DNA of 64,000 nt from Halomonas chromatireducens (GTDB lineage Bacteria > Pseudomonadota > Gammaproteobacteria > Pseudomonadales > Halomonadaceae). Shown here piece by piece: positions 35,540-51,052 of this stretch (position 1 is its first letter; the number at the start of each line of letters is the position of its first letter). The position numbers were made by a program, and so were the translations under genes. The notes beneath the pieces are model-generated. The model made no database searches and was not told the origin of the DNA. It was given only the letters and a program-made list of their open reading frames with translations. The stretch is from contig NZ_CP014226.1 of the NCBI RefSeq assembly GCF_001545155.1, forward strand, positions 3,706,159 to 3,770,158. The letters are read 5' to 3'.

Positions 35540-35591
35540 AATAAAAAGTATTCGCATTTGTGTTGACGGCATAAACGAGAATGATTACAGT
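35540..35591 (+). promoter_or_regulatory. Predicted promoter with Fur-like boxes for a small RNA
   Basis: TTGACG (35563-35568) and TACAGT (35586-35591) are 17 bases apart. Two partial Fur-like boxes bracket the -35. The stretch at 35541-35559 read on the minus strand (AATGCGAATACTTTTTATT) matches a Fur consensus at about 13 of 19 positions. GAGAATGATTAC at 35578-35589 overlaps the -10. There is no open reading frame to serve, only the hairpin-rich segment that follows. Confidence 0.4.
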
Positions 35592-35596
35592 GTGGG

Positions 35597-35712
35597 TGTG
35601 GCGTTTGATGAGGCGCCACACCCATAAGAGGATCGCCAGTTCCTCGTTATGGTTTCTCCCCTCATTTGCTAGTCACGGTCTTGCCTGCGCCCTCCCTGAG
35701 GGCGCTTTTTTT
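35597..35712 (+). ncRNA. Predicted trans-acting small RNA, possibly iron-regulated
   Basis: About 115 bases between the AEC gene and the IS element form three hairpins. H1 pairs 35594-35603 with 35614-35623 (10 bases). H2 pairs 35622-35632 with 35641-35652 (11 pairs, one bulged G, loop TCGCCAGT). H3 is a textbook terminator, GCGCCCTC/GAGGGCGC (35687-35705) followed by seven T. Between H2 and H3 is an unpaired CU-rich stretch (TTTCTCCCCTCATTTGC) that could pair with ribosome-binding sites. No coding frame is convincing. The layout resembles RyhB/PrrF-type Hfq RNAs, but no sequence match to them was seen. Confidence 0.5.
35687..35712 (+). terminator. Rho-independent terminator of the predicted small RNA
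   Basis: GCGCCCTC (35687-35694), loop CCT, GAGGGCGC (35698-35705), then TTTTTTT. It lies 160 bases beyond the AEC stop, too far and with too much structure between to be only that gene's terminator. Confidence 0.8.
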
Positions 35713-35717
35713 GTTAG

Positions 35718-35767
35718 CTGCGGTCCGACAGCGATTCTATCCACCGACGCTGCCACACCGCTGTTGG
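35718..35767 (+). repeat. Left half of a palindromic repeat split by the IS element
   Basis: The spacer CCACCGACGCTGCCACA (from 35740) and CGCTGTTGG match the units at 37281-37317 and 37451-37488. The half ends at 35767, where the IS begins, and continues at 37158. Joining the two sides gives a stretch that aligns without gaps to 50911-50946. Confidence 0.75.
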
Positions 35768-35865
35768 AAATGGGATGGACCCGTCCCTCCCTGTGCCAAG
35801 ATGAGTTTGCAACGCCATCTGGGTGCATGGGGCACCACACGGCATCTTGAAGAGAGGGTCCATCC

Positions 35866-36894
35866 ATGAATCACATTAGCATCGTCGGGATTGATCTTGC
35901 CAAGCATGTCTTTCAACTTCATGCGGTCGATCCCAAAGGCCGCCAGATATTCAGCAAGAAGGTGTCTCGCTCGGGCTTACGCCTGACGCTGGCCCAGGTA
36001 CCTCCCTGCCGCGTCGCCATGGAGGCATGCGGTGGTGCCCACTACTGGGCAAGGGAGATCCAGGCCCTGGGGCATGAGGTCCAATTGATCCCTCCCCAGT
36101 ACGTGAAGCCCTTTGTGCTGGGCCACAAGAGCGATGCCCGGGATGCCCGCGCGATCGCCGAGGCAGCGGCCCGCGATGCCACGCCACGGGTGGCGCCCAA
36201 GACACTGGAACAGCAGGCGCTGCAAGCCATGCATCGCGTGCGCTCCCGGGCGATTGCCAACCGCACGGCCCTGGGCAATGAGCTGCATGGCTTGCTCGCC
36301 GAAATGGGCATCTGCGTGGCGAAGGGTCACTCGGTGTTTCGCCAGGGTGAGGTCCGGCGCTTACTCGCCGAGCACCGGGCCCAGCTCGGCGACGACCTCT
36401 TCGTGGTGCTGGATGATGTTCTGGATCAGTGGCTCTCGCTGGATGCGCGCATTCATGCCTACGATCAGCGCCTGGCACGGCTGGCCAGGGCGACGCCGGT
36501 TTGTCGACGCCTGATGAGCGTGCCCGGCATCGGGCCGGTCAATGCGACCTTACTGGCCAGTCATATCGGTGACCCCAGGCGGTTTGCCAATGGTCGATCC
36601 TTCAGTGCCTCGATTGGCTTGGTGCCCCGCCAGCACTCGAGCGGCGGCAAGGAACGACTGCTGAGCATCTCCAAACGGGGCAACGGTGAGGTGCGTCGGC
36701 AGCTCGTGCATGGGGCCCGAGCGGCCTTGCGTGCCTTTCAGTGCCAGCAGCAGCCGGATCGGCTGGCTCGCTGGGCATGCGCCCTGGCGGCACGGCGTGG
36801 GGCGGCCAAGGCCACTGTCGCCCTGGCGAACAAGCTGGGCAGGATCTGCTGGGCGGTGATGGTGCGAGACACGGTCTACGCGGCCACCCCGTAA
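35866..36894 (+). CDS. IS110-family transposase (DEDD), IS1111 subgroup
   Basis: RNA-guided recombinase of 342 residues that inserts the element by a Holliday-junction-like path. The RuvC-like DEDD domain comes first: IVGIDLAKHVFQLHAVD (Asp10), VAMEACGGAHYWAREI (Glu), and GHKSDARDARAIAEAA (two Asp). The C-terminal Tnp20 domain has LMSVPGIGPVNATLLASHIG and GLVPRQHSSGGKERLLSISKRGN with the serine nucleophile. Full length with no frameshift, so the element is probably active. Its ATG directly follows the internal dyad arm. Confidence 0.95.
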   Translation: MNHISIVGIDLAKHVFQLHAVDPKGRQIFSKKVSRSGLRLTLAQVPPCRVAMEACGGAHYWAREIQALGHEVQLIPPQYVKPFVLGHKSDARDARAIAEAAARDATPRVAPKTLEQQALQAMHRVRSRAIANRTALGNELHGLLAEMGICVAKGHSVFRQGEVRRLLAEHRAQLGDDLFVVLDDVLDQWLSLDARIHAYDQRLARLARATPVCRRLMSVPGIGPVNATLLASHIGDPRRFANGRSFSASIGLVPRQHSSGGKERLLSISKRGNGEVRRQLVHGARAALRAFQCQQQPDRLARWACALAARRGAAKATVALANKLGRICWAVMVRDTVYAATP

Positions 36895-36975
36895 TGCGAT
36901 GACGCGATGACATAGTCACGATTTTTCCCCGAGGTTGCGCAGGTACGAACGTAGATGGCAGGACAGGTCAGACCG

Positions 36976-37100
36976 GCTCTCCGCCACGCTGTGAAGATGT
37001 ATGGCCGCTGTTGAGGCCGAGTCGGAGATCAGCTCGGAGAGCGCGCATCCCATCATGGCCAGGCACCGATGCAGTGCCGCTGACAGGCCGGATATAAGCG
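36976..37100 (+). ncRNA. Candidate bridge/seek RNA of the IS1111-type element
   Basis: In the 3' non-coding end of the IS, GCTCTCCG (36976-36983) pairs with CGGAGAGC (37035-37042). Inside, AAGATG (36994-36999) is the reverse complement of the right target flank (37160-37165), and CCGCTGTTG (37005-37013) equals the left flank (35758-35766). Next, CATCCCAT (37046-37053) is the reverse complement of the IS left end (35770-35777), and ATATAA (37092-37097) equals the right-end/left-end junction. Both guide pairs have the same order and polarity. Local stems GGCAC/GTGCC (37062-37078) and GGCC/GGCC (37057-37089) separate the second pair. Exact RNA ends are unknown. Confidence 0.65.
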
Positions 37101-37157
37101 TGCAGTCTCACCCCCGCCGATACGTTTCGGGCTTGCACAACGGGACTGGTCCATATA

Positions 37158-37279
37158 AGCATCTTTAGATCGCGACTGGAGGCGAAAGCCTCCCGGCGGG
37201 GTTGCCAACGTTCGCGGCCATCACCGGCGTTTCAGCCTCCGCCAAGGCGCCAGTCGCGACGCGGAGCGGCGCTCCAACA
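37158..37279 (+). repeat. Right part of the palindromic repeat split by the IS
   Basis: Continues 35762-35767. With them it makes a ~128-base unit opening TGTTGGAG and closing CTCCAACA (37272-37279), with CGCGACTGG near the start and CCAGTCGCG near the end forming an inner dyad. A ~31-base spacer (37280-37310) leads to the next unit. Confidence 0.75.
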
Positions 37280-37310
37280 ATGATTCTCTCCACCGACGCT
37301 GCCACATCGC

Positions 37311-37450
37311 TGTTGGAGGAAGCTTTAGCTCACGACTGGAGACCGAAGGGCTCCCGGCAGTGTTGCCAGCGCTGGCGGTAACCGCCAGCGTTGCCGCCTC
37401 CGCCGAGGCGCCTGGCGGCGCCAGTCGCGACGCGGAGCGGCGCTCCAACA
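37311..37450 (+). repeat. Long palindromic repeat, intact unit
   Basis: A 140-base unit bounded by TGTTGGAG (37311-37318) and CTCCAACA (37443-37450). Inner arms are CGACTGG and CCAGTCG, with a GCCAGCGCTGGC-containing centre. A ~31-base spacer almost identical to the previous one follows. The period to the next unit is 171 bases. No open frame is credible. Confidence 0.8.
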
Positions 37451-37481
37451 ATGATTCTCTCCACCGACGCTGCCACATCGC

Positions 37482-37651
37482 TGTTGGAGGAAGCTTTAGC
37501 TCCGGTCCGACGCATCGGCGACTGGAGGCCGAAGGGCTCCCGGCGGTGTTGCCAGCGCTGGCGATGAGCACCAGCGTTACCGCCTCCGCCAAGGCGCCTG
37601 ACGGCACCAGTCGCGATGCAGAGTCGGAGCGCCGAACCGAGCGCTCCAACA
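37482..37651 (+). repeat. Long palindromic repeat, third tandem unit (diverged)
   Basis: A 170-base unit bounded by TGTTGGAG (37482-37489) and CTCCAACA (37644-37651). It carries two extra insertions, TCCGGTCCGACGCATCGG after the left arm and AGTCGGAGCGCCGAACC before the right arm. The two insertions share GGTCCGAC/GTCGGA-type complementarity, so they pair within the stem. The spacer after it runs into the 3' end of the LysR gene. Confidence 0.75.
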
Positions 37652-50914: not shown

Positions 50915-51052
50915 TGTAGGAGTATCTTCAGATCACGACTGGAGGCCGAAGGACTCCCGGCGGCGTTACCGATGGTCGCGGTTATTGCCAGCGCGGCAGC
51001 CTCCGCCGGGCGCCTATCGGCGCCAGTCGCGATGGGAACCAGCGCTCCAACA
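50915..51052 (+). repeat. Dispersed copy of the long palindromic repeat
   Basis: A 138-base unit opening TGTAGGAG and closing CTCCAACA, inner arms CACGACTGG and CCAGTCGCG. Its first ~36 bases align without gaps to the 35758-35767 plus 37158-37183 join. It occupies most of the 347-base gap between the second glnK and fpr; the rest holds only the terminator below. Confidence 0.78.

Follow-up and report, generated by a model that had tools for sequence, protein, structure and literature searches.

An insertion sequence (IS) in a 64,000-nucleotide stretch of Halomonas chromatireducens DNA, referred to as the window, raises the question of whether it carries an RNA that reads its own insertion site and, if so, which segments of that RNA act as guides. 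The first-pass annotation of this locus had proposed an IS1111-type element with a readable guide RNA in its 3′ non-coding end, the left target guide being a nine-base segment that is identical to the left flank beside the insertion point.

An intact IS1111-type element

The element has the following features.

35768–37157, + strand: whole insertion sequence, 1390 bp; 35769–37158 is equally possible (one A is shared)
35775–35787, + strand: left subterminal inverted repeat ATGGACCCGTCCC; it can pair with 37142–37154 at 12 of 13 positions
35866–36894, + strand: intact gene for a DEDD transposase of 342 aa (PF01548, E 1.3e-18; PF02371, E 7.5e-23; GLVPRQHSSG motif)
37133–37138, + strand: candidate −35 box TTGCAC, with a −10-like TAAAAT across the joined ends (spacing 17; 8 of 12 consensus bases)
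37142–37154, + strand: right subterminal inverted repeat GGGACTGGTCCAT

In agreement with the assignment made in the first-pass annotation, the element combines a DEDD transposase, subterminal inverted repeats and a downstream non-coding region. The transposase has the size (342 aa, within the 330–350 aa of IS1111) and the motif (GLVPRQHSSG, conforming to GL-P----S(t)G) that characterize the IS1111 type. The inverted repeats, 13 bp long with 12 of 13 positions complementary, are within the 11–13 bp of IS1111 and are subterminal as in that type, with extensions of 7 bp on the left (AAATGGG) and 3 bp on the right (ATA). The long non-coding region downstream of tnp (36895–37157) measures about 263–264 bp, which also corresponds to IS1111. 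As in IS1111, a target duplication is absent: an intact REP with identical flanks is present in another genome, and only a single A is ambiguous. The arrangement is not that of the IS110 group (IS621 type), as the RNA lies downstream of tnp and the guide order is of the IS1111 type. Abutting the two IS ends would form a promoter-like pair, the best being TGCACA-16-TAAAAT with 9 of 12 consensus bases, a value reached by 0.3% of 2000 random joins.

The own genome contains the whole IS once, and six further matches are short REP pieces. A plasmid search gave at least 5000 records, all below 60% identity among the matches listed. No description of the window element was found in the titles and abstract openings listed by searches of open-access journal literature. 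Judged by its sequence, the window element is an intact, ordinary member of the IS1111 family with a seekRNA/bridge RNA.

The insertion site is a REP-like repeat

The window IS interrupts a REP-like repeat, the two halves of the target being:

35763–35767, + strand: left half of the target, GTTGG, which continues as AG at 37158–37159
37158–37165, + strand: right half of the target, AG-CATCTT, read from the flank sequence

A congeneric genome has an uninterrupted REP (G006:C41:36733-36783) that is identical to the occupied site over the 29 bases compared on the left and the 23 compared on the right, and a near-identical uninterrupted REP (93% and 100%) is present on the own chromosome (C1:1497996-1498046). 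A strict pattern for the target REP occurs at 17 places in the own genome, and its reversed control at none. Among the REPs of this genome the third base of GTNGGAG varies (A, T, C). More GTNGGAG-type REP-like repeats were observed in the window at 37272–37650 and at 50916, several of them consecutive and in both orientations, immediately to the right of the IS.

Another feature lies on the left side, where the IS starts 54 bases downstream of a stretch (35563–35713, + strand) giving a weak full-length Rfam match to the PrrF small RNA (36.2 bits against a gathering score of 90; E 8.6e-5). This stretch contains CUCCCCUCA...GCUAGUCACGGU as well as a hairpin that, with its T run, resembles a terminator, and by its sequence it is possibly a PrrF-like sRNA of the family to which the window host belongs. 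PrrF functions in iron regulation in Pseudomonas.

Anatomy and structure of the guide RNA

The segments of the RNA, as delineated by the analyses described below, are:

36969–37107, + strand: seekRNA/bridge RNA region, according to model R1
36976–36983, + strand: target-loop closing stem, 5′ side, pairing with 37035–37042; two of eight pairs changed on both sides
36994–36999, + strand: right target guide AAGATG, complementary to top-strand CATCTT (37160–37165) and backed by covariation
37003–37018, + strand: apical hairpin GGCC-GCTGTTGA-GGCC, which contains CCGCTGTTG; by covariation not a guide
37021–37027, + strand: left target guide GTCGGAG, matching the site GTTGG^AG at 6 of 7 bases
37035–37042, + strand: target-loop closing stem, 3′ side, from the consensus fold
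37046–37053, + strand: right donor guide CATCCCAT, complementary to the IS left end (35770–35777)
37092–37097, + strand: left donor guide ATATAA, equal to the IS right end

All four segments named in the first-pass annotation are present at the positions given there: AAGATG (36994–36999), CCGCTGTTG (37005–37013, identical to 35758–35766), CATCCCAT (37046–37053) and ATATAA (37092–37097). GTCGGAG (37021–37027) had been overlooked; it is at this position that covariation with the left flank is seen. Top-strand complement (36994–36999) and bottom-strand match (37021–37027) follow each other in the order typical of seekRNAs, and the same order is found in relatives.

In the consensus fold (alignment A1, 12 sequences including the window) the right and left target guides are on opposite strands of one internal loop, with the closing stem below it and the apical hairpin above it; the donor loop comes next. 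When evaluated on 11 sequences, 99.4% of 308 cells in this fold are paired, and between 23 and 48% of the cells are still paired when partners are slid by 1–3 columns. In these 11 sequences, six of the 28 pairs show a change on both sides (shuffled mean 4.0; 11/500 as high). Two results count against the guide reading that we favor. Further pair types, one of five pair measures, numbered 12 and were not above shuffles (487/500 as high), and folding of the single sequence was no better than that of shuffles (z 0.79; 158/200 as good) and did not recover the consensus fold. The four pairs of the apical stem are invariant and are therefore uninformative either way.

The window and 10 relatives were used to build model R1. 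Among 76 more distant loci (38–49% transposase identity) it found the RNA in 75, the exception being L059. The match was downstream of the matched gene in 74 of these 76 loci and upstream in L085. The model also found the RNA in five of six viral-contig loci, the one missed (L203) being on a contig that ends just past the gene, and, in a sample of 390 genomes from the order, gave matches in 43 (E up to 0.001). No Rfam family matched the guide RNA at E 1; two other weak matches were obtained.

Guides co-vary with flanks in close relatives

In the bacterial family of the window element, right guides and right flanks change together (guide/flank):

Window: AAGATG/CATCTT
L055: AAATCG/CGATTT
L119: AATTCG/CGAATT
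L117: AGCCGG/CCGGCT
L123: AAGCTC/GAGCTT
L185: AAGCTG/CAGCTT
L163: GAAGTGCGC/GCGCACTTC

Over 12 guide-flank rows from this family (11 distinct guides, window included), the summed run of right guides against their own right flanks was 73, versus 46.2 after shuffling (sd 5.0; 0/20000 as high). Shorter runs were obtained for L121 and L169 (5), L134 (4) and L009 (3). The right guide of L009, which is 5′-truncated and has lost its left end, does not match its right flank, and this counts against our main reading.

L055 and L009 are decayed copies in Halomonas socia (NZ_CP048812.1). L055, whose transposase gene has an internal deletion, still fits its right guide; L009, which lacks the left end, does not. 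Genome G113, which has the same family label (f1) as the window's genome, contains two copies with the guides and right flanks of these two elements.

In genome G225 (L163–L184), 19 full-length copies were read and partial ones also occur; among them are at least two seekRNA variants, which have different apical loops and keep the same kind of site. At the left junction, 18 of the 19 have GTGGG and L168 has CTTGG; further left, the copies differ from one another. The right flank is exactly GCGCACTT in five, one base off (GCGCAATT or GCGGACTT) in nine, and a poorer fit in the other five (L164, L168, L170, L171, L174).

Several further copies gave no readable guide: those of G048 and G091 are cut by contig ends, the model match starting only at position 80 or 105, and G063 has a left end only. 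An RNA match was not found in the scanned loci of G059 and G023, the element of the latter breaking off within the gene. The guide part is missing from L125 and L128; L127, in which an RNA-like stretch persists, was dropped because its ends were poorly located.

Guides co-vary with flanks and IS ends in distant relatives

For a wider analysis, 97 matches were aligned, of which five had too little sequence, and IS ends were found automatically via the inverted repeats. Of the remaining 92, another 24 were excluded because their ends were poorly located or their flanks short; these include L009, whose guide does not fit, as well as L119, L033 and L037, whose guides fit. Seven more were removed as duplicate guides. 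In the resulting 61 non-redundant elements, using permutations that do not preserve relatedness, the mean run was 6.82 versus 3.88 shuffled for the right guide and 6.18 versus 3.87 for the left guide (0/10000 as high in both cases). Strand-swapped controls, which do preserve relatedness, were flat (3.90 versus 3.77, 1367/10000 as high; 3.49 versus 3.58, 8257/10000). The 51 elements outside the close-relative set gave 6.98 versus 3.91 for the right guide and 6.22 versus 3.83 for the left guide. The donor guides were compared with the IS ends of the 61 elements in the same way, and gave 5.57 versus 4.93 and 5.79 versus 3.94 (0/10000 each).

The ends of L055 were wrong in the 61-element run. Matches per position were counted in a set of 60 elements, in which the flanks of L055 were corrected by hand and L070, which has an empty guide, was removed. 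Positions 3–9 of the left guide match target positions −5 to +1 in 48, 51, 54, 53, 57, 51 and 50 of the 60 elements, where 16–20 matches per position are expected, or 45.4 at the last position, a near-invariant G; positions beside these seven are at or near background. The left guide matches at 7/7 bases in 32 elements, at 6/7 in 14 and at fewer in 14. The right guide matches at five or six of its six bases in 41 elements, at four in three and at three or fewer in 16; these 16 count against our main reading. So does the window element itself in one respect: the sole mismatch of its left guide is at target position −3, which matches in 54 of the 60. Relative to the insertion point, the right target guide of distant IS1111 elements (alignment A3) takes either of two registers, which differ by one base.

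A later order-wide scan provided a fresh set of 29 matches in 28 loci, from which 20 were dropped (five short, 15 for their ends) and nine were usable. With the same pipeline these nine elements gave 7.78 versus 4.20 for the right guide and 6.33 versus 4.24 for the left guide (0/10000 each), and the strand-swapped controls and the apical hairpin were flat.

Together, the R1 structure model and the covariation with flanks bear out the guide RNA that had been proposed for the 3′ non-coding end. In the relatives of the window element the guide co-varies with the target, as in seekRNAs; the position of AAGATG co-varies with the right flank, those of both donor guides (CATCCCAT and ATATAA) co-vary with the IS ends, and the segments keep the same order and polarity, all as the first-pass annotation had it. 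AAGATG and the two donor segments are beyond chance because the same positions co-vary in relatives.

Proposed mechanism and the match of the guide to its own site

Based on sequence and on analogy with published elements, we consider it very probable that the window contains an intact IS1111 IS with a 3′ seekRNA, which has a target loop formed by AAGAUG and GUCGGAG and a donor loop, and that its insertion is REP-directed. The RNA anatomy, the guide-flank covariation, the ends and the empty site are shown by the sequences. On the right side of the insertion point, AAGAUG in the 5′ strand of the target loop would pair with the top strand. The loop's 3′ strand, GUCGGAG, would base-pair with the bottom strand and so read the seven target bases that span the insertion point, and the apical hairpin would do no more than cap the loop. 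The second loop (CAUCCCAU, AUAUAA) would read the abutted IS ends. For the window element we infer transcription, binding, the circle and catalysis/transposition by analogy: a transposase-RNA complex would excise a circle, and this circle would insert in one orientation, without target duplication, into a REP reading GTNGGAG-CATCTT.

The claim that the guide still matches its own site holds through AAGATG together with GTCGGAG (6/7), and not through CCGCTGTTG. With respect to the one mismatch, the guide may have drifted since insertion or come from another REP, such that it is now addressed to GTCGGAG-type REPs and sits one mismatch away. We regard this as possible, but less likely than not. 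An uninterrupted REP-like site on the own chromosome, GTCGGAGCATCTT (G000:C1:3547113-3547125, L210), is unoccupied and matches the window guide at 13 of 13 bases, and the variability of the third base of GTNGGAG among the own REPs also speaks for drift. However, a 6/7 match is common (14 of the 60 elements, next to 32 with 7/7), and a single copy cannot separate drift from mismatch tolerance. Moreover, the 13-base pattern GTNGGAGCATCTT has two uninterrupted matches on the own chromosome, one of them this 13 of 13 site, and its reversed control also has two, so that their number alone is meaningless; both matches have REP-like context and nothing else favors them.

The nine-base match beside the insertion point

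It is very unlikely that CCGCTGTTG (37005–37013) is the left target guide, either alone or as an extra contact made by the apical hairpin. What recommends it is an exact nine-base match adjoining the insertion point, which is the highest apical value among the 61 elements (the next is 6). The first-pass annotation had considered such a match unlikely by chance. However, a match of at least nine bases was obtained for ∼7.8% of random flank pairs (3000 pairs of 20-base window flanks, either strand, anywhere in the non-coding end). When only the apical hairpin and the left flank are compared, matches of at least nine bases are rarer than this whole-end figure (3 of 3660 mismatched element pairs).

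Several observations speak against it. CCGCTGTTG is part of the apical hairpin, and in other elements the sequence of this hairpin does not follow the flanks: its mean run against the left flank was 3.87 versus 3.73 shuffled in the 61 elements (1169/10000 as high), 3.82 versus 3.73 in the 51 outside the close set (2516/10000) and 3.56 versus 3.50 in the nine fresh ones (4758/10000). L055 carries six of the nine bases of CCGCTGTTG unchanged at corresponding positions, and its left flank shows no such match (longest run 3). In G225 it is GTGGG beside the IS that is kept in 18 of 19 copies, and bases further left differ. Finally, the match ends one base before the junction, or two if the shared A is counted on the left. 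The flank covariation check proposed with the first-pass annotation, when run in relatives, is passed by the right guide and failed by CCGCTGTTG. The CCGCTGTTG match is misplaced within the RNA and probably coincidental; the guide is indeed readable, and its left part had been misplaced.

In this lineage the apical loop GCTGTTG might have become a third contact, reading the REP left of the normal left-guide bases, and such tripartite recognition could perhaps make up for the one mismatch of the left guide. As the nine-base match confined to the hairpin is the rarer event (3/3660), we give this three-contact reading a small probability rather than none. Tripartite target recognition is not described in the available portions of PMC11187229, PMC11208160 and PMC1525189. 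That the non-coding end is inert and its matches are due to chance is virtually untenable: the single-sequence fold is no better than shuffles, as an inert end would have it, and yet fixed-position covariation in 60 elements, repeated in nine fresh ones, refutes this view at the family level, and the structure model was found in 75 of 76 distant loci.

Relation to known systems

The reading we prefer, a 3′ seekRNA whose target loop is formed by AAGAUG and GUCGGAG, follows a principle that was already published in 2024 (PMC11187229, PMC11208160); the comparisons made here refer to the available portions of the papers cited. In the IS1111 elements tested, among them the REP-targeting ISPa11, the transposase co-purifies with an RNA derived from the non-coding region, and ISEc11 requires this RNA to form circles and to transpose (Siddiquee et al. 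2024, PMC11187229). In IS1111 seekRNAs the top-strand complement precedes the bottom-strand match, and the target has been redirected naturally between relatives (PMC11187229). Target and donor loops have been shown for IS621, and 93.0% of IS1111 elements are predicted to have such an RNA (Durrant et al. 2024, PMC11208160). The use of REPs as IS insertion sites has been catalogued, for instance for ISPa11, ISPpu9 and ISPpu10 (Tobes and Pareja 2006, PMC1525189).

The window element resembles ISPa11 and ISEc11 (PMC11187229) in its DEDD transposase, its subterminal inverted repeats with 7-bp and 3-bp extensions and the non-coding region after the gene. It shares with the elements of that study the order of top-strand complement and bottom-strand match, a REP target (ISPa11) and natural redirection between relatives. 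Unlike those elements it has another host and another target sequence and is known from sequence alone. Target matches are located in PMC11187229; for the window element donor matches were located as well. Like the IS110/IS621 bridge RNA (PMC11208160), its RNA has two loops, target and donor, each with left and right guides, but compared with IS621 the RNA is at the right end instead of the left and the guide order is reversed. Many IS1111 donor guides are in a multi-loop (PMC11208160), whereas those of the window element are placed on either side of a simple inner stem by the consensus fold. The element also resembles ISPa11, ISPpu9 and ISPpu10 (PMC1525189) in its insertion into REP elements, and differs from them in its host and REPs; a guide RNA is absent from that account in its available portions. 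At the level of sequence, the window element fits every seekRNA/IS1111 feature tested.

At this locus the true guide was told from a tempting chance match by its position in a co-varying structure and not by the length of the match. Model R1 is able to find the RNA in distant IS1111 elements. The occupied site with one mismatch and the unoccupied perfect site make mismatch tolerance and guide drift testable. In addition, the analysis yields a set of naturally re-addressed IS1111 elements from a single bacterial family, in which several elements address different REP arms.
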